Shown piece after piece: positions 2,713-9,872 of a stretch of DNA of 9,991 nt. Source of the stretch: JBHIBR01 sp046759145 [NCBI: Nitrospinota bacterium] (lineage in GTDB: Bacteria; UBA8248); the NCBI GenBank assembly GCA_046759145.1, contig JBHIBR010000038.1:1-9991 (forward strand), written 5' to 3'. The notes beneath the pieces are model-generated. The model was not told the DNA's origin. It searched no databases and was given only the letters and a program-made list of their open reading frames with translations. How positions within the stretch are numbered: position 1 is the stretch's first letter; each line of letters starts with the position of its first letter. Both the position numbers and the translations under genes were made by a program.

Positions 2713-3137
2713 ATGGCGGAGTCGAGCGGGGCGGTGGTCAAGAAGTCGGGCTGCCTGATGTGCCACGGCGGGTGCGGGATCCTCGTGCACGTCGCCGACG
2801 GCAGGGCGGTGAAGCTGGAGGGCGACCCGGAGTGCCCCAACAACGCGGGGAAGCTCTGTCCCAAGGGGCGGGCGGGGCTCGACCTCCTCTACCATCCCGA
2901 CCGGCTGAAATACCCCCTCAAGCGAGCGGATGCCCGGGGTGAGGGGAAGTGGGAGCGGATCTCCTGGGGCCGGGCGCTCGATGAGATCGCCGGCAAACGG
3001 ACGCCGCGGTCCTGCTGGCGTGGCTCCACGTCATCCTGAAGGAAGAGCTCTACGACCGGGAGTTTGTCGAACGCTGGACGAACGGGCCGTTCCTGGTCCG
3101 CGCCAAGGGGCTTGACCGCCCTCAGGCCCAATGCTAG
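2713..3137 (+). pseudogene. Molybdopterin oxidoreductase remnant: N-terminus joined out of frame to an internal piece
   Basis: The ATG at 2713 has a strong GGGAGG site five bases upstream. The first roughly 95 residues are a clear start of a DMSO-reductase-family molybdoenzyme. They carry the [4Fe-4S] ligands C14, C17, C21 and C49 followed by PKGRAG, then HPDRLKYPLKR and the WERISWGRALDEIA block. After about position 2994 the frame-1 tail becomes nonsense and stops at 3037-3039. From 2997 a second frame reads TDAAVLLAWLHVILKEELYD, then FVERWTNGPFLVR, and stops at 3135-3137. In intact relatives this block lies roughly 100 residues further on. One internal deletion that also shifted the frame explains the pattern, and everything after it (most of a protein of about 700-800 residues) is gone. 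The family assignment is firm; the original substrate cannot be told. Confidence 0.82.
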
Positions 3138-3342: not shown

Positions 3343-4434
3343 ATGGCGGAGGTAGTCGTCCGGGACCTCATGAAGCGCTTCGGCCCCGAGGTGGTGGCGG
3401 TCCAGGGCGTGAGCTTCACCGTGCGGGAGGGGGAGTTCGTCACCCTCCTGGGCCCGAGCGGCTGCGGGAAGACGACAACCCTCCGCTGCGTCGCGGGGCT
3501 CGAGGTGCCCGAGGGCGGGGAGATCCTGATCGGGGGCGAGCTCCTCACCTCGTCCCCGCGCGGCGTCTCCGTGCCGCCCGAGCAGCGCCGGCTGGGGATG
3601 GTCTTCCAGTCCTACGCCGTCTGGCCCCACATGACGGTGTTCGAGAACGTGGCCTACGGCCTCCGGGCCCAGCGGACCCCGCGCTCCGAGCTGGGCGAGC
3701 GGGTGCGGAGGGCACTTGCGCTCGTGGGGCTCAAGGGGCTTGAGGGCCGAAACGCCACCAAACTCTCCGGCGGGCAGCAGCAACGCGTGGCCCTGGCCCG
3801 CGCCCTGGTGTACAACCCCCGCGTGCTCCTCTTCGACGAGCCCCTGAGCAACCTGGACGCCAAGCTGCGCGAGCGCATGCGGCTCGAGCTCACCAAGCTC
3901 GTGCGGGAACTCGGCTTGACCTCCATCTACGTCACCCACGACCAGGCTGAGGCCATGGTGATGAGCGACCGCATCATCGTCATGAACGAGGGACGCATCC
4001 AGCAGGAGGGGGACCCCCACACCATCTACAACGAGCCGGCCAACTGCTTTGTGGCCGACTTCATCGGCATCGCCAACCTCCTGGAGGGCGCGGCCCTCGA
4101 ACGCGACGGCGACGAGGCCATGCGGGTGGAGGTGCCCGCCGCGGGGGCGCGGCTTTTGTGCGGCCGCCGGACGGAGGGGGTGGAGCCGGGCGCCCGCGTC
4201 ACCGTGAGCGTGCGGCCCGAGCATATCGAGCTCCTCGCCGGCGAGTCGCGGGGGCCGAACCGGCTGGAGGGGACGGTCACCGACGCCGTCTACCTGGGGC
4301 AGCTCTGGGACTGCCGGGTGCGGGTCAAGGACCTCAGCCTCCGGGTGCAGTCCCAGGGGGAGTTCCCGCTGCGTCCCGGCCAGCGCGTCACGGTGGGGAT
4401 GGCCCCGTCGCGGTGCGTCCTGTTGCGGGAGTGA
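3343..4434 (+). CDS. ABC transporter ATP-binding protein (FbpC/PotA-type importer ATPase)
   Basis: This is the nucleotide-binding subunit that powers import at the cytoplasmic face of the membrane, 363 residues, the usual length for this class. Visible motifs: Walker A GPSGCGKT (37-44), Q-loop Q89 in MVFQSYAVWPHMTV, signature LSGGQQQ (141-147), Walker B VLLFDEP (161-167), D-loop SNLD and switch histidine H199. A C-terminal TOBE-type regulatory domain follows (about 240-363), with the typical VRPEHIEL near 290. The ATG at 3343 has AGGGG/GGAGG directly upstream and gives the standard N-terminus; the next in-frame ATG would cut into the first strand. It is the first intact gene of the plus-strand operon and is followed by binding protein and permease. 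The order and type match ferric, phosphonate or polyamine importers. The family does not fix the substrate. Confidence 0.95.
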   Translation: MAEVVVRDLMKRFGPEVVAVQGVSFTVREGEFVTLLGPSGCGKTTTLRCVAGLEVPEGGEILIGGELLTSSPRGVSVPPEQRRLGMVFQSYAVWPHMTVFENVAYGLRAQRTPRSELGERVRRALALVGLKGLEGRNATKLSGGQQQRVALARALVYNPRVLLFDEPLSNLDAKLRERMRLELTKLVRELGLTSIYVTHDQAEAMVMSDRIIVMNEGRIQQEGDPHTIYNEPANCFVADFIGIANLLEGAALERDGDEAMRVEVPAAGARLLCGRRTEGVEPGARVTVSVRPEHIELLAGESRGPNRLEGTVTDAVYLGQLWDCRVRVKDLSLRVQSQGEFPLRPGQRVTVGMAPSRCVLLRE

Positions 4435-4469: not shown

Positions 4470-4534
4470 AGGAGAGGGTCCGCATCGGGTGAACCCGGCA
4501 GCAGGGACAACGAATGGCAAGGGGAGGAGAAGCC

Positions 4535-5662
4535 ATGAAATCACGTGTCTTCGGTTAGGCAGCAGCTCTGCTGGCGGCCGTGGCCCTCGCGGTCCCGGCG
4601 TGGGCGGCCGAGGCGCCAGTCCTGAAAGAGCTCAAGGGGCCTGAGCGGGAGCGGGTGGAGCGCCTCATCCGGGCGGCGAAGCGCGAGGGGGCGTTCCTCT
4701 GGACCACCAACCTCGCACCGGTCAAAGCAGCCAAGGAACTCGAGAAGGCCTTCAAAGCTCGCTACGGGCTCCAGGGCCTCCGGGTGAGCTTCTCCAACCG
4801 CCGCAGCGGCACCGTCATCAAGCGGGTGGAGGAGGAGATCCGGGCGGGAAAGGTCGGCACCGACTTGGTCATCCTGGCAACGGCGGCCTGGCTCCATTCC
4901 ATGAAGCGGCGCGGAGAGCTACTCAAGTACAACTCCCCCGAGGATAAGCACTACGGCCCCGCCGCCAAGGCCCGGATGAACGCGCCGGGCTACTGGGTGG
5001 CCGACGCCCAGATCAACACCATAGCCTGGAACCCGAAACTGACGGGCCCGTTCAAGGTCACGAGCTGGTACGACCTCCTCAACCCCCGCTTCAAGGGGAA
5101 GATCGTGGTGGGGGATGCGACCGGATCGGAGACCTACACCTTCTGGTACATGGGCCTGCGGAAGGTGCTGCCCAAGAGCTACTTTGAGAAGCTCGCCGCC
5201 CAGGGCACGGGCCTCCTGCGCCGGGGCTCCGCGCAGCGCCGGGCCCTCATCACGGGGGAGTACTGGTTGGGCACCACCATCATGGCCCGGCACAACTGGA
5301 TCGCGCGGCTGCGGGGTGCACGGCTCGAGCCCGCATACCCTAAGGAAGGCGTAGTCGCTCTTCCCATCGGGTCGGTCATCCTGGCCAAGGCGCCCCACCC
5401 CAACGTCGCGAAGCTCTTCGTCGATTTCTGGCGCAGCGCGAGGGGGAAGCACATCCTCCTCTCCCATAACCCCATCAACGTGGGATACGCGAACCTTCCT
5501 CCCCACCCCGACCCTGAGATCAACGAGCTGGTGCTGGGGAAGATCGCCCCGCCCATCGAGAAGCTCAACATCATCCCCATCGAGTGGGACAAGCTGACGC
5601 CCAAGGACGTGAAGAAGTGGCGGGCGGAGTTCGTCTCGATCCTCGCTCGAAGGAAGCGCTAG
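4535..5662 (+). CDS. Periplasmic solute-binding protein of ABC importer, with in-frame TAG in the signal peptide
   Basis: Captures the transported solute in the periplasm for the adjacent permease. It belongs to the ferric/phosphonate-type binding-protein superfamily (SBP_bac_6-like): a mature domain of about 350 residues with TDLVILATAAWLHSMKRRGE, NTIAWNPKLTGPFKVTSWYD, LLNPRFKGKIVVGDATGSET and VALPIGSVILAKAPHPN. The natural start is the ATG at 4535, six bases after GGGGAGGAG. From it the frame reads MKSRVFG, then TAG (4556-4558), then AAALLAAVALAVPAWA and a likely signal-peptidase site before AEAP. Apart from codon 8 it is a perfect export signal. The longest uninterrupted frame could start only at a GTG at 4580, which has no charged n-region and no proper ribosome site. 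The rest is intact to the stop at 5660-5662. No adjacent Tyr-Tyr pair typical of ferric binding is seen, so iron is unlikely. The TAG may be a recent nonsense mutation (from TTG, TGG or CAG), a sequencing error, or be read through. Confidence 0.85.
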
Positions 5663-5689: not shown

Positions 5690-7462
5690 TTGCCGCTCAG
5701 ACTCGGTGCAAGGCGAAGCAACCCCGGGTTGGGGGCGGCGGCGGGCACCGCCGCCCCCGCCCCCGCCCGGGGGGTTGCTTACGGCTGGCTGAACCCGGAG
5801 TCCCTGGTGATGTCGGGGGCCCTGGGGATGTTGGCCGTCCTGGCCATCTTGCCGGTGGCCGTCTACGTCTCCTCCAGCTTCCGTCACTACACCGAGGCGG
5901 GCCCCGTGGGGATCACGCTGGCGAACTACGTCAGCACGTTCTCCGAGCCCATCATGCGGGAGGCCATCTGGAACACCTTCTTCATCGCCGGCGCCACCGC
6001 CCTCTGCGCGGGAGTCCTGGGGACGGCCCTCGCCTGGTTCCACGCCCGGACCGACATGCCGGGGAGGGCCCTGCTCGAGCCCCTCACGCTGGTCCCCTTC
6101 TTCCTCTCCTCCTTCGTGGGGGCCATCGCCTGGTGGGCGCTGGCGGCGCCGCGGATCGGCATGCTGAACCACTGGGCCATCCGCCTCTTCGGCCTCTCGG
6201 GGCCCCCCTTCAACATCTACAGCATGGGCGGCATCATCCTGGTGCTGAGCCTCTTCTACACCCCCTACATGTACCTCTTCACCATCGGTTCCTTCCACCG
6301 CATGGACCCCGCCCTCGAGGAGACGGCACGGATCTGCGGGACGGGCGTGATCCGGACAGCCCTCCGTGTGACCATCCCCCTCGCCACGCCCGCCATCCTC
6401 TCGGGGGCGATCATCATCTTCGTCGTGAGCGCGAGCGTATTCGGAGTCCCCATAGCCCTGGGTGGCCCCTCCCGCATCCACACCCTCTCCACGCAGATCT
6501 TCACCAAGATGGAGGAATACCCCCTCGACGTCGGCGGCGCCGCCGCGGCGGGCAGCATCCTCATGCTCGTCACGGCCTTGGGCATCGCCATCCAGCGGAG
6601 GATCATCGCTCCCCGCAGCTATGTGACGGTGACGGGGAAGGGCTATCGGCCCCAGCGGGTTTCCTTGGGCGGGGGGCGCTACGTCGCCTTAGGGGTGAAC
6701 CTGGCCTACATCTTGCTCGCGGTGGTGCTCCCCCTGGGGGCGCTGGCCCTCGCTTCCTTAAGCAAGCTCTGGCTGGGGAGCTTCCAGTGGGAGCAGCTCA
6801 CGCTGCAGAACTGGCGGTTCGTCCTCTTCGAATACGAGTACACCATCCGGGCCATCCGGAACAGCCTCCTCCTGGGCATCGTGGGCGGCTTCCTCACTGT
6901 GGTCCTCTGCACTCTTCTGGCCTATCTGATCATCCGGGGCCGGAGGGGCCGCCTGCGAGGCGTGTTGGACTATCTCAGCACGCTCCCCGTGGGCGTGCCC
7001 GGCATCGTCATGGGGATGGCCTTCCTGGTGACGTGGATCCGCACGCCCCTCTGGGGCTTCCCCCTCATCCTCCTGATGCTGGCCTACATGACCCGCTACA
7101 TGCCCTACGGCCTGCGGACCGTCTCGGCGGTGCTCCAGGCCCTGAGCCCCGAGCTCGAGGAGAGCTCGCGCGTGTGCGGGGCCTCCTTGCTCCGGACCCT
7201 GAGGCGCGTGACCGTCCCCCTCCTCCATTCGGGGATGGCCGCCGCCTACCTCATGCTCTTCATCATGTTCATCCGGGAACTGCCCGTCTCGATCCTGCTG
7301 GCCACCGAGCAGAGCACGCCCATGGCCGTGGCGCTGTACGTCATCAGAGAGAACGAGACCCTGGGCGTGGTGGCCGCCTTCGCCCTGGTCCAGACCCTCT
7401 TGCTTTTGGGTGGGACCTATATCTTCCGCCGGCTGGCGGGGCTGGAGGAGCTGGCCGTGTGA
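5690..7462 (+). CDS. ABC transporter permease, fused two-domain (FbpB/ThiP-like)
   Basis: Forms the membrane channel of the importer. It has 590 residues from the TTG at 5690, which has GGGAG about six bases upstream. Two permease domains are fused in one chain, as in ferric and thiamine importers, so no second permease gene is needed. About 12 hydrophobic segments are visible, near residues 43-62, 94-116, 133-153, 180-200, 234-255, 285-303, 331-355, 391-414, 430-450, 457-472, 511-530 and 558-578. Each half carries an EAA loop that docks the ATPase: EETARICGTGVIRTALRVTIP (about 210-230), read EETARICGTG then VIRTALRVTIP, and EESSRVCGASLLRTLRRVTVP likewise (about 490-510). The first 30 residues are Ala/Pro/Gly-rich low complexity encoded by a strong palindrome. 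The true start may therefore be later, at GTG 5807 or ATG 5810. It lies 27 bases after the binding-protein gene. Confidence 0.93.
   Translation: MPLRLGARRSNPGLGAAAGTAAPAPARGVAYGWLNPESLVMSGALGMLAVLAILPVAVYVSSSFRHYTEAGPVGITLANYVSTFSEPIMREAIWNTFFIAGATALCAGVLGTALAWFHARTDMPGRALLEPLTLVPFFLSSFVGAIAWWALAAPRIGMLNHWAIRLFGLSGPPFNIYSMGGIILVLSLFYTPYMYLFTIGSFHRMDPALEETARICGTGVIRTALRVTIPLATPAILSGAIIIFVVSASVFGVPIALGGPSRIHTLSTQIFTKMEEYPLDVGGAAAAGSILMLVTALGIAIQRRIIAPRSYVTVTGKGYRPQRVSLGGGRYVALGVNLAYILLAVVLPLGALALASLSKLWLGSFQWEQLTLQNWRFVLFEYEYTIRAIRNSLLLGIVGGFLTVVLCTLLAYLIIRGRRGRLRGVLDYLSTLPVGVPGIVMGMAFLVTWIRTPLWGFPLILLMLAYMTRYMPYGLRTVSAVLQALSPELEESSRVCGASLLRTLRRVTVPLLHSGMAAAYLMLFIMFIRELPVSILLATEQSTPMAVALYVIRENETLGVVAAFALVQTLLLLGGTYIFRRLAGLEELAV
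5716..5780. repeat. Nested GC-rich palindrome at the 5' end of the permease gene
   Basis: An outer pair AAGCAACCCC (5716-5725) and GGGGTTGCTT (5771-5780) encloses an inner perfect 11-bp pair GGGGGCGGCGG (5731-5741) and CCGCCGCCCCC (5748-5758) with a 6-nt loop. It would form a very stable RNA hairpin right after the proposed TTG start. Here it codes for an Ala/Pro/Gly-rich stretch without conserved residues. It could be an intergenic regulatory or mobile hairpin, with the real start downstream, or a translated structure that lowers permease output relative to the binding protein. Confidence 0.6.
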
Positions 7463-7485: not shown

Positions 7486-8661
7486 ATGGAATTCACCCTC
7501 ACCGAGGAGGGGCGGGCGCTGCAGCAGCTCGCCCGCGATTTCTTCGAACGGGAGGTCCGGCCCATGGCGGCCGAATACGACCGCAGGCCGGACCCCCGGG
7601 AGTGCGTCCCCTGGGAGCTCATCGAGAAGGGCTCCCGGCTGGGGCTCCGGACCCTGGGCACGCCGGCCCGCTGGGGGGGAGGGGGCGCAGACCTTCTGAC
7701 CCAGGCGATGGTCATCGAGGAGATGGCCCGCGTGGACATCGGCGCCTCGAAGACCTTCAGCCACAACTGGAAGGTCTCCTCCCGCATCGCGGCCCTCGCG
7801 AGCGAGGAACAGTGCCAGCGATTCCTGCCCCCCTTCGTCGAGGACCACCGCTTCCTCCTCTCGAACGCCATCACCGAGCCCGACGCCGGCTCGGACAACT
7901 TCCTCCCCCACGACGCCCCCGAGGCGGGCGCGCGCTGCTTCGCCGAGCGGCGGGGCGACGGCTACATCATCAACGGCCGCAAGACCTTCATCGCCCTGGG
8001 GGGCGTCTCCCGGCTGGTGGTCCTCTGGGCCCGGACCGACCGCTCGGTGGGAGTGACCAAGGGCCTGAGCACCTTCCTCGTGCCCAGGGGCACGCCCGGC
8101 TTCTCGGTGGGGCACATCCACGACAAGATGGGGATGCGGCTTTACAACAACGCCGAGCTCATCTTCGAGGCCTGCCGCGTCCCCGCCGAGAACCTGGTGG
8201 GGGCCGAGGGGGAGGCCTGGGAGCAGCGCCAGCGGGTGGCGGGGGGAGGAAACATCGAGGTGACGGCCCACGCCGTGGGCTGCGCCCGGGGGGCCTACGA
8301 GCACGCTCTGGAGCACGCGCGAAACCGGGTCCAGGGCCTCCGTCCCATCACCGAGCACCAGGCCATCGCCATGAAGCTCTCCGAGATGGCCATGGAGGTG
8401 GAGGCGGGACGGACGCTGCTTTGGCGCGCGGCCTGGTCGGCCGACCACCTCCGTCCCCCCGACCGCAAGCTCACCATCCTCGCCAAGGTGTTCGCCACCG
8501 AGATGGCGGTGCGCGTCGCCCGCATGGCCTGCGAGGTGTGGGGCGGGATGGGGGTGATGCGGGACGCCCCGGCGGAGAAGCTCCTGCGGGACGCCGCCGT
8601 CCTCCTCCACATGGACGGGACGAACCAGATCAACCGCATCAAGGCGGCCCGCCGCCTCTGA
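7486..8661 (+). CDS. Acyl-CoA dehydrogenase family protein (first of a tandem pair)
   Basis: A cytosolic FAD enzyme of the acyl-CoA dehydrogenase superfamily; members make an alpha-beta double bond in an acyl-CoA and pass electrons to electron-transfer flavoprotein. 391 residues, normal length. Visible: N-terminal helical domain, SNAITEPDAGSD (126-137), YIINGRKTFIA (160-170), beta-domain HIHDKMGMRLYNNAELIFEA, then the C-terminal helical domain with ALEHARNRVQG, ITEHQAIAMKLSEMAMEVEAGR and VWGGMGVMRDAPAEKLLRDA. Where medium- and short-chain enzymes have catalytic Glu in an x-E-G-T-N-Q motif, this protein has HMDGTNQI: Asp377 replaces Glu. The Glu-Arg of the isovaleryl/long-chain type is also not at its usual place. 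The ATG at 7486 follows GGGAGGGAG by six bases and lies 23 bases after the permease stop. Family assignment is firm; the acyl substrate, and even classical dehydrogenation, are uncertain. Confidence 0.93.
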   Translation: MEFTLTEEGRALQQLARDFFEREVRPMAAEYDRRPDPRECVPWELIEKGSRLGLRTLGTPARWGGGGADLLTQAMVIEEMARVDIGASKTFSHNWKVSSRIAALASEEQCQRFLPPFVEDHRFLLSNAITEPDAGSDNFLPHDAPEAGARCFAERRGDGYIINGRKTFIALGGVSRLVVLWARTDRSVGVTKGLSTFLVPRGTPGFSVGHIHDKMGMRLYNNAELIFEACRVPAENLVGAEGEAWEQRQRVAGGGNIEVTAHAVGCARGAYEHALEHARNRVQGLRPITEHQAIAMKLSEMAMEVEAGRTLLWRAAWSADHLRPPDRKLTILAKVFATEMAVRVARMACEVWGGMGVMRDAPAEKLLRDAAVLLHMDGTNQINRIKAARRL

Positions 8662-8690: not shown

Positions 8691-9872
8691 ATGGACATGC
8701 GCATCAGCGATGAGCACCGGGCCCTGCGGCGGATGGCGCGGGAGTTCGCCGAGCGGGAGATCCGGCCCATCGCGGCCGAGCGGGACCGCATCCCGGACCC
8801 CCGGGAGGTCTTCACCTGGGACATCGTCCGCAAGGGCTCCCGGCTGGGGCTGAGGACGCTGGCCGTCCCCGAGCGGTTCGGGGGCCCGGGGGTGGACCTG
8901 GTGGGCCAGTGCCTGGTCATCCTGGAGCTGGCCCGGGGCGACGGCGCCATCGCCAAGACCTTCAGCCAGTGCTGGAAGTGGACCCCCATGCTGACCGAGC
9001 TGGCGACCGCCGAGCAGCGGGAGCATTTCCTGCCCCCCTTCCTGGAGGACGACACCTACCTCCTGGCCATGGCGGGGACGGAGCCCGAGGCGGGCTCGGA
9101 CAACCGCATGCCCCCCGACGACCCCGCGGCCGGCTGGAAGACCTCGGCCGTGCGGGAGGGCGAGGAGTGGGTCCTGAACGGGACCAAGCACTTCATCGCC
9201 AACGGCGGGGTGGCCAAGCTCTACGTCGTGATGACCCGCACCGACCGGACCGTGCCCATCACCCGGGGGACCACCATGTTCTTCGTCCCCGCGGACACCC
9301 CCGGCTTCCGCATCGGGCGCGTCCACGACAAGGTGGGCTTCCGCTTCTACCAGAACGCCGAGCTCATCTTCGAGGACTGCCGCGTCCCCGACGCGAACCT
9401 CCTGGGGGAGGTGAACAAGGGGAAGAGCGCCTCCCGGGAGCGCATCGTGGGGTTCAACGACGTGGAGCTTGCCGCCAACGTCCTGGGCATCGCCCAGGCG
9501 GCGTTCGAACACGCCCTCGAGCACGCCCGCAACCGCGTCCAGGGAGGGCGCCCCATCATCGAGCACCAGGCGGTGAGCCTCATGCTGGCCGACATGCGGA
9601 TGCGCCTGGAGGCGGGGCGGAGCTACCTCCTCCGGGTGGCGGCGGGCTGCCAGGAGGAGGGCGACCGCTTCGACCCGGCGGCCAAGGCGCTCTTAAAAGT
9701 TTTCGCCACCGAGGCGGCCACCCGGGTGGGGCAACAGGCGGTCGAGATCTTCGGCGGGATGGGCATCATGCGGGAGGCGCCCGTGGAGAAGCTCTGGCGC
9801 GACGTGAGCGTCTTCCCCCACCTGGCCTCCGACTCGGTCCAGATCCTCCGGGCGGCGCGCTTCCTCCGCTAG
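8691..9872 (+). CDS. Acyl-CoA dehydrogenase family protein (second of a tandem pair)
   Basis: Paralogue of the preceding gene, 393 residues, sharing its layout and many blocks: KGSRLGLRTL, TEPxAGSDN, ELIFExCRVP, ALEHARNRVQG, EHQA and KVFATE. Visible: AMAGTEPEAGSD (126-137), WVLNGTKHFIANGG (160-173), RVHDKVGFRFYQNAELIFED, and IFGGMGIMREAPVEKLWRDV near the C-terminus. The usual catalytic-Glu motif is replaced by HLASDSVQI (377-385): Ala379 occupies the position of Asp377 in the first paralogue, and the GTNQ part is lost. Both paralogues keep a glutamate in a VEL/IEV segment (E259 here, E258 in the first) near where isovaleryl-type enzymes carry their base. The ATG at 8691 follows GAGGGAG at eight bases; an ATG two codons on is also possible. 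It lies 29 bases after the first paralogue. The two may form a heteromeric enzyme, or one may act on the product of the other; both are inference. Confidence 0.92.
   Translation: MDMRISDEHRALRRMAREFAEREIRPIAAERDRIPDPREVFTWDIVRKGSRLGLRTLAVPERFGGPGVDLVGQCLVILELARGDGAIAKTFSQCWKWTPMLTELATAEQREHFLPPFLEDDTYLLAMAGTEPEAGSDNRMPPDDPAAGWKTSAVREGEEWVLNGTKHFIANGGVAKLYVVMTRTDRTVPITRGTTMFFVPADTPGFRIGRVHDKVGFRFYQNAELIFEDCRVPDANLLGEVNKGKSASRERIVGFNDVELAANVLGIAQAAFEHALEHARNRVQGGRPIIEHQAVSLMLADMRMRLEAGRSYLLRVAAGCQEEGDRFDPAAKALLKVFATEAATRVGQQAVEIFGGMGIMREAPVEKLWRDVSVFPHLASDSVQILRAARFLR

Follow-up and report, generated by a model that had tools for sequence, protein, structure and literature searches.

An in-frame TAG at codon 8 of an ABC importer solute-binding protein gene, most likely a recent inactivation of the gene or a sequencing error

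In the stretch of contig JBHIBR010000038.1 analysed here (9,991 nucleotides, called the window), the gene for the solute-binding protein (SBP) of an ATP-binding cassette (ABC) importer is interrupted by an in-frame TAG at codon 8, inside the predicted export signal. We consider this most likely to be a gene copy that was broken recently, or else a sequencing error, and not a new mechanism. The TAG had been observed before in a sequence-only reading of the window, and the observation was confirmed: when the frame was read again, the layout described there (ribosome site, ATG, MKSR start, hydrophobic core, TAG at codon 8 and the length of the frame behind it) proved exact. The ATG at 4535-4537 opens the SBP frame, codon 8 is TAG (4556-4558), and 367 sense codons follow before the terminal TAG at 5660-5662. 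The translation begins MKSRVFG*AAALLAAVALAVPAWAAEAP..., where the asterisk is the internal stop. The features of the gene are as follows.

4516..4534, + strand: Shine-Dalgarno region of the SBP gene, GGGGAGGAG; duplex -11.2 kcal/mol, spacing 6
4535..5662, + strand: SBP gene frame with the internal TAG, from its translation, Pfam and 11 orthologues
4535..4609, + strand: predicted Sec-type signal peptide, interrupted at codon 8; n-region MKSR, h-region AAALLAAVALAV, c-region PAWAA
4556..4558, + strand: in-frame TAG, codon 8; all 11 orthologues have a sense codon here
4580..4582, + strand: GTG, proposed restart codon, with almost no ribosome site

Across the five plus-strand genes and the window's part of an FAD-linked oxidase gene on the minus strand, this TAG was the only internal in-frame stop.

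G001 is the genome that contains the first close locus; its phylum is Nitrospinota according to record titles, and 18 genomes from this phylum were searched for relatives of the SBP. Some relative was found at E <= 1e-20 in 16 of them, and two had none at that threshold. Eleven genomes contained a close orthologue, 57-67% identical over nearly the full length, and a further five only a distant relative (best rows 26-31%). The paralogues L026 (37% identical) and L027 (35%; start uncertain) were left out of the set of 11, and weaker matches (26-32%) were not used.

Each of the 11 orthologues has, at the place matching 4535, an ATG preceded by a purine-rich ribosome site. The n-region behind it begins M-K or M-R and carries a net charge of +2 or +3 over the first eight residues, and it is followed by a hydrophobic core and then by an end containing Ala. 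Since the same start and signal layout occurs in the whole set, 4535 is the true start of the family and not a chance ATG. The signal type and its end were deduced from the sequence by simple measures (charge and hydropathy), not by a signal-peptide predictor. Among the five plus-strand starts scored, GGGGAGGAG also formed the strongest computed anti-Shine-Dalgarno duplex (-11.2 kcal/mol, against -8.0 to -10.7 for the other four). The export signal is unbroken in every orthologue, and only in the window is it interrupted.

Counted from the start, codon 8 is TGG in five orthologues (G002, G003, G017, G004 and G006), TTG in G001, TCG in G007, G010 and G011, and GCG in G008 and G009; thus it is a sense codon in all 11 and TAG in none, and their leaders contain no stop at any other position. 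By DNA and gene order, G004 and G006 come closest to the window (77% DNA identity from the permease through both acyl-CoA dehydrogenases, with identical gene order). Their leaders align with that of the window without gaps, and both have TGG at codon 8. The other nine leaders are about three residues longer, so that the columns differ according to whether they are counted from the start or aligned from the end; no stop appears either way.

A search of 386 genomes around G006 (E <= 1e-40) returned the same 11 genomes and none closer. Scanning genome contigs gave five loci, three of them close, and two of these three carry Nitrospinota or Nitrospinae titles. Among viral contigs, 27 candidate stretches were found and none was confirmed as a relative. 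A search of the PLSDB plasmids for the operon gave nine records, none covering 80% of the query, and the five listed match short ATPase stretches of at most 8% of the query. From the sense codons in the 11 orthologues, the stop is private to the window sequence among the sequences compared, as is expected of a nonsense pseudogene. The sequence-only reading had proposed that a sense codon in relatives would reveal a base error. A sense codon was indeed found, but in other species only, and this does not establish an error, since the picture would be no different with a nonsense mutation private to the window.

The SBP frame sits between the ATPase gene of its transporter upstream and a fused permease gene downstream. 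The surrounding genes are the following.

3343..4434, + strand: ABC transporter ATPase, intact, ends in TGA; ABC_tran and TOBE_2 (Pfam)
5690..7462, + strand: fused two-domain ABC permease, intact, ends in TGA; BPD_transp_1 in two stretches (Pfam)
7486-8661 and 8691-9872, + strand: two acyl-CoA dehydrogenases, the second being ACAD2
3-2230, - strand: part of an FAD-linked oxidase with an iron-sulphur domain (Pfam)

The Pfam domains bore out the earlier statement that the permease and ATPase are intact. The SBP itself scored above the curated cut-offs of SBP_bac_11 (E 1.2e-13; 51.8 bits, cut-off 25) and SBP_bac_6 (E 1.1e-12; 48.4 bits, cut-off 24.6), and its profile matches are those of the extracellular solute-binding protein family. 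The order ATPase-SBP-permease, as in an operon, is kept in the eight relatives' loci compared, where the contig of L041 ends inside the ATPase and L043 and L001 belong to the same genome. Models for 2-aminoethylphosphonate, polyamine and ferric importers were among the NCBIfam matches (best 2 of 2 SBP, 25 of 186 ATPase and 25 of 27 permease families). Because all of these scores lie below the curated cut-offs, no substrate was assigned to the importer. Taken together, the gene is predicted to encode an ordinary periplasmic SBP of an ABC importer in an uncultured bacterium related to Nitrospinota.

Just upstream of the operon, at 2713-3116 (possibly to ~3320) on the plus strand, lies the clearly decayed remnant of a molybdopterin oxidoreductase gene. 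It retains the N-terminal Fe4S4 part of ~95 residues (58-65% identical to genes in seven relatives' loci); then ~125 residues have been lost with a change of frame, 37-43 residues more extend up to 3116, and further in-frame stops are present. No match to the remnant was listed on C35, the contig of G006 that carries the ABC operon, and the contig of G004 ends inside the ATPase, so that its upstream region was out of view. Since the remnant is decayed, real gene loss does occur in this neighbourhood.

The rate of change of the SBP was compared with that of its neighbours in protein trees of seven or eight taxa, using the mature part of the SBP. The window branch measured 0.29 for the SBP, 0.20 for the permease, 0.20 for the ATPase and 0.17 for ACAD2, and the stem of the intact pair G004/G006 measured 0.43, 0.30 and 0.18 for the SBP, permease and ACAD2; the ATPase tree includes G006 only, with a branch of 0.19. 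The ratio of the SBP to the permease branch is thus ~1.5 both in the window and in the stem of the pair, and that of the SBP to the ATPase branch is 1.5 in the window. The SBP of L019 and L020 (the loci of G006 and G004, respectively) has diverged faster than the permease of the same loci, and the SBPs of these two genomes are less like that of the window (57-58%) than are those of the nine other genomes (60-67%). A change of ligand in the G004/G006 pair is possible.

Our judgement leans towards a real, young nonsense allele by which an ordinary transporter would be inactivated, and we rank this ahead of an error in the consensus base. A single recent nucleotide substitution in the region coding for the signal peptide would have created the nonsense codon; ribosomes starting at ATG 4535 would then stop after seven residues, no SBP would be exported, and the importer would be inactive even though its ATPase and permease are intact, the lesion being presumably too young for other decay to show. 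The ranking was made because young pseudogenes are common in bacteria and a decayed gene lies next door. The main rival, an appreciable if lesser possibility, is that the TAG arose when sequencing or assembly put a wrong base into the consensus, or when the assembler chose a minority allele, and that the real gene is intact. This would agree with the absence of the stop from the orthologues and with the rest of the gene being conserved as expected, and the window may stem from a contig of a draft or metagenome assembly, of unknown coverage. If substitution errors are assumed to occur at 1e-3, 1e-4 and 1e-5 per base, the 8,538 coding bases counted should contain 0.23, 0.023 and 0.0023 false stops, respectively, which makes an error possible but not something to expect. 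At ordinary rates the number is therefore small, but screening many windows would still turn up cases of this kind. Several observations weigh against the young allele. A single consensus error would look identical to it. The third-codon guanine-plus-cytosine (GC) fraction of the SBP gene is 0.90, compared with 0.94-0.98 in the other four intact plus-strand genes. Of the columns without variation in the other seven genomes, the window has changed 23 of 157 in the SBP and 18 of 271 in the permease, which could hint at relaxed selection (ATPase, 6 of 194; ACAD2, 14 of 218). The ratio of nonsynonymous to synonymous substitution rates (dN/dS) between the window and G004/G006 is 0.49-0.59 by NG86 and LWL85 (0.59 and 0.56 by NG86), and in the intact pairs G006-G004 and G001-G002 it is 0.13-0.14 and 0.07-0.09, respectively (0.14 and 0.08 by NG86). 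With G004 set aside, the intact G006 shows changes in 47 of 185 SBP, 37 of 295 permease, 9 of 197 ATPase and 29 of 235 ACAD2 columns, and the SBP to permease ratio is twofold there too, as in the window. Since the intact sister lineage shows the same excess, the SBP is the fastest of the four proteins in both lineages and nothing marks the window copy as specially decayed; on this ground the idea of strong SBP decay was rejected. As for dN/dS, a third intact pair, G001-G004, is higher (0.34-0.35; 0.35 by NG86), and the NG86 values for the window against G001, G007, G002 and G003 are 0.21, 0.16, 0.24 and 0.29, so that the high ratio belongs at least partly to the G004/G006 side. Only NG86 covers all nine pairs, and with this GC content dS probably comes out too low. 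On the whole, the rates agree with a stop that arose lately or does not really exist. The earlier claim that the remainder of the gene is free of decay holds in the sense that the branches and invariant columns reveal none beyond that of the intact sister lineage.

The knock-out and the base error, two of the four explanations offered in the sequence-only reading, thus stay live, but the other two found no support. If the TAG were read through, by a suppressor tRNA, by reassignment of TAG or by leaky termination, a low level of complete exported protein would result. The frame downstream of the TAG is intact and conserved, and in-frame stops under purifying selection are described as widespread in bacterial genes (PMC7918605). 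Against this, none of the 11 orthologues has the stop, and TAG terminates both the SBP gene itself (5660) and ACAD2 (9870). Since TAG is in use as a terminator, the genetic code is not changed wholesale. A pattern search for an amber-suppressor tRNA (anticodon CTA) in seven relatives gave no candidate, the pattern being of limited sensitivity: there was one hit in each of six relatives, all six were called tRNA-Arg(TCT) by ARAGORN, the pattern having probably matched one base out of register, and the reversed control gave one hit (G007). When sensitivity was checked with the anticodon CCA in the same pattern, a tRNA-Trp-type sequence was found in five of the seven (G001, G003, G006, G007 and G017) and none in G002 and G004; three of these five were fetched and confirmed by ARAGORN, and the other hits in the fetched loci were tRNA-Gly or received no tRNA call. 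We regard read-through as most unlikely, and a low, perhaps regulated leakage at the TAG that sets the amount and export of the SBP in this lineage as more doubtful still; recoding of TAG in the lineage was rejected on the terminators and the lack of an amber tRNA candidate in the seven relatives. It is very unlikely, too, that translation begins anew at GTG 4580, perhaps because ribosomes reinitiate once the seven-codon frame has ended, and gives a functional protein that is cytosolic or weakly exported. This GTG is in frame and 21 bases from the stop, a gap close enough for reinitiation after termination. Its Shine-Dalgarno energy is, however, -1.5 kcal/mol compared with -11.2 kcal/mol at ATG 4535, and 88% of 90 internal GTG codons in the plus-strand genes of the window equal or beat it. 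The product, MALAVPAWAAE, would have a truncated signal that lacks a charged n-region and whose core is weak (mean hydropathy over the best 12 residues 1.22, compared with 2.09-2.94 in the 11 orthologues), and a cytosolic binding protein would not serve an importer. The next in-frame GTG, at 4655, has -6.2 kcal/mol, and a start there would lose the whole signal.

The tRNA loci fetched from six relatives (L058-L063) contain the cluster Arg(TCT)-His(GTG)-Arg(TCG), and in five of these loci Lys(CTT) comes next.

Gene-calling software would probably put the start of the protein at GTG 4580, as the mechanical list of open reading frames does, and would thus predict a cytosolic SBP. The comparison instead places the family start at 4535, with an interrupted export signal. 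Outside annotation the finding is of little consequence. If the young nonsense allele is real, the locus would show cleanly how an importer can be inactivated through the export signal of its SBP while the membrane parts remain.

The gene resembles bacterial nonsense-mutation pseudogenes in that a single in-frame stop interrupts a conserved gene which is intact elsewhere and in relatives; it differs in that the lesion is single, with no further decay seen, and may be a consensus error. Belinky et al. 2021 (PMC7918605) trace such interrupted frames to four sources: artefacts of annotation, sequencing errors, pseudogenes, and functional genes with a premature stop. The cases described in that article are alike in having a stop inside a coding frame that otherwise looks maintained, but there the stop is common to at least two genomes, whereas that of the window is in none of the 11 orthologues. 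The importer shares its component types with the putative 2-aminoethylphosphonate transporter PhnS2/PhnT2/PhnU2, whose models TIGR03261, TIGR03265 and TIGR03262 are among the best-scoring in NCBIfam; the window proteins nevertheless all fall below the equivalog cut-offs of PhnS2T2U2, with 28.5 of 392.75, 358.5 of 457.7 and 151.9 of 593.25 bits.
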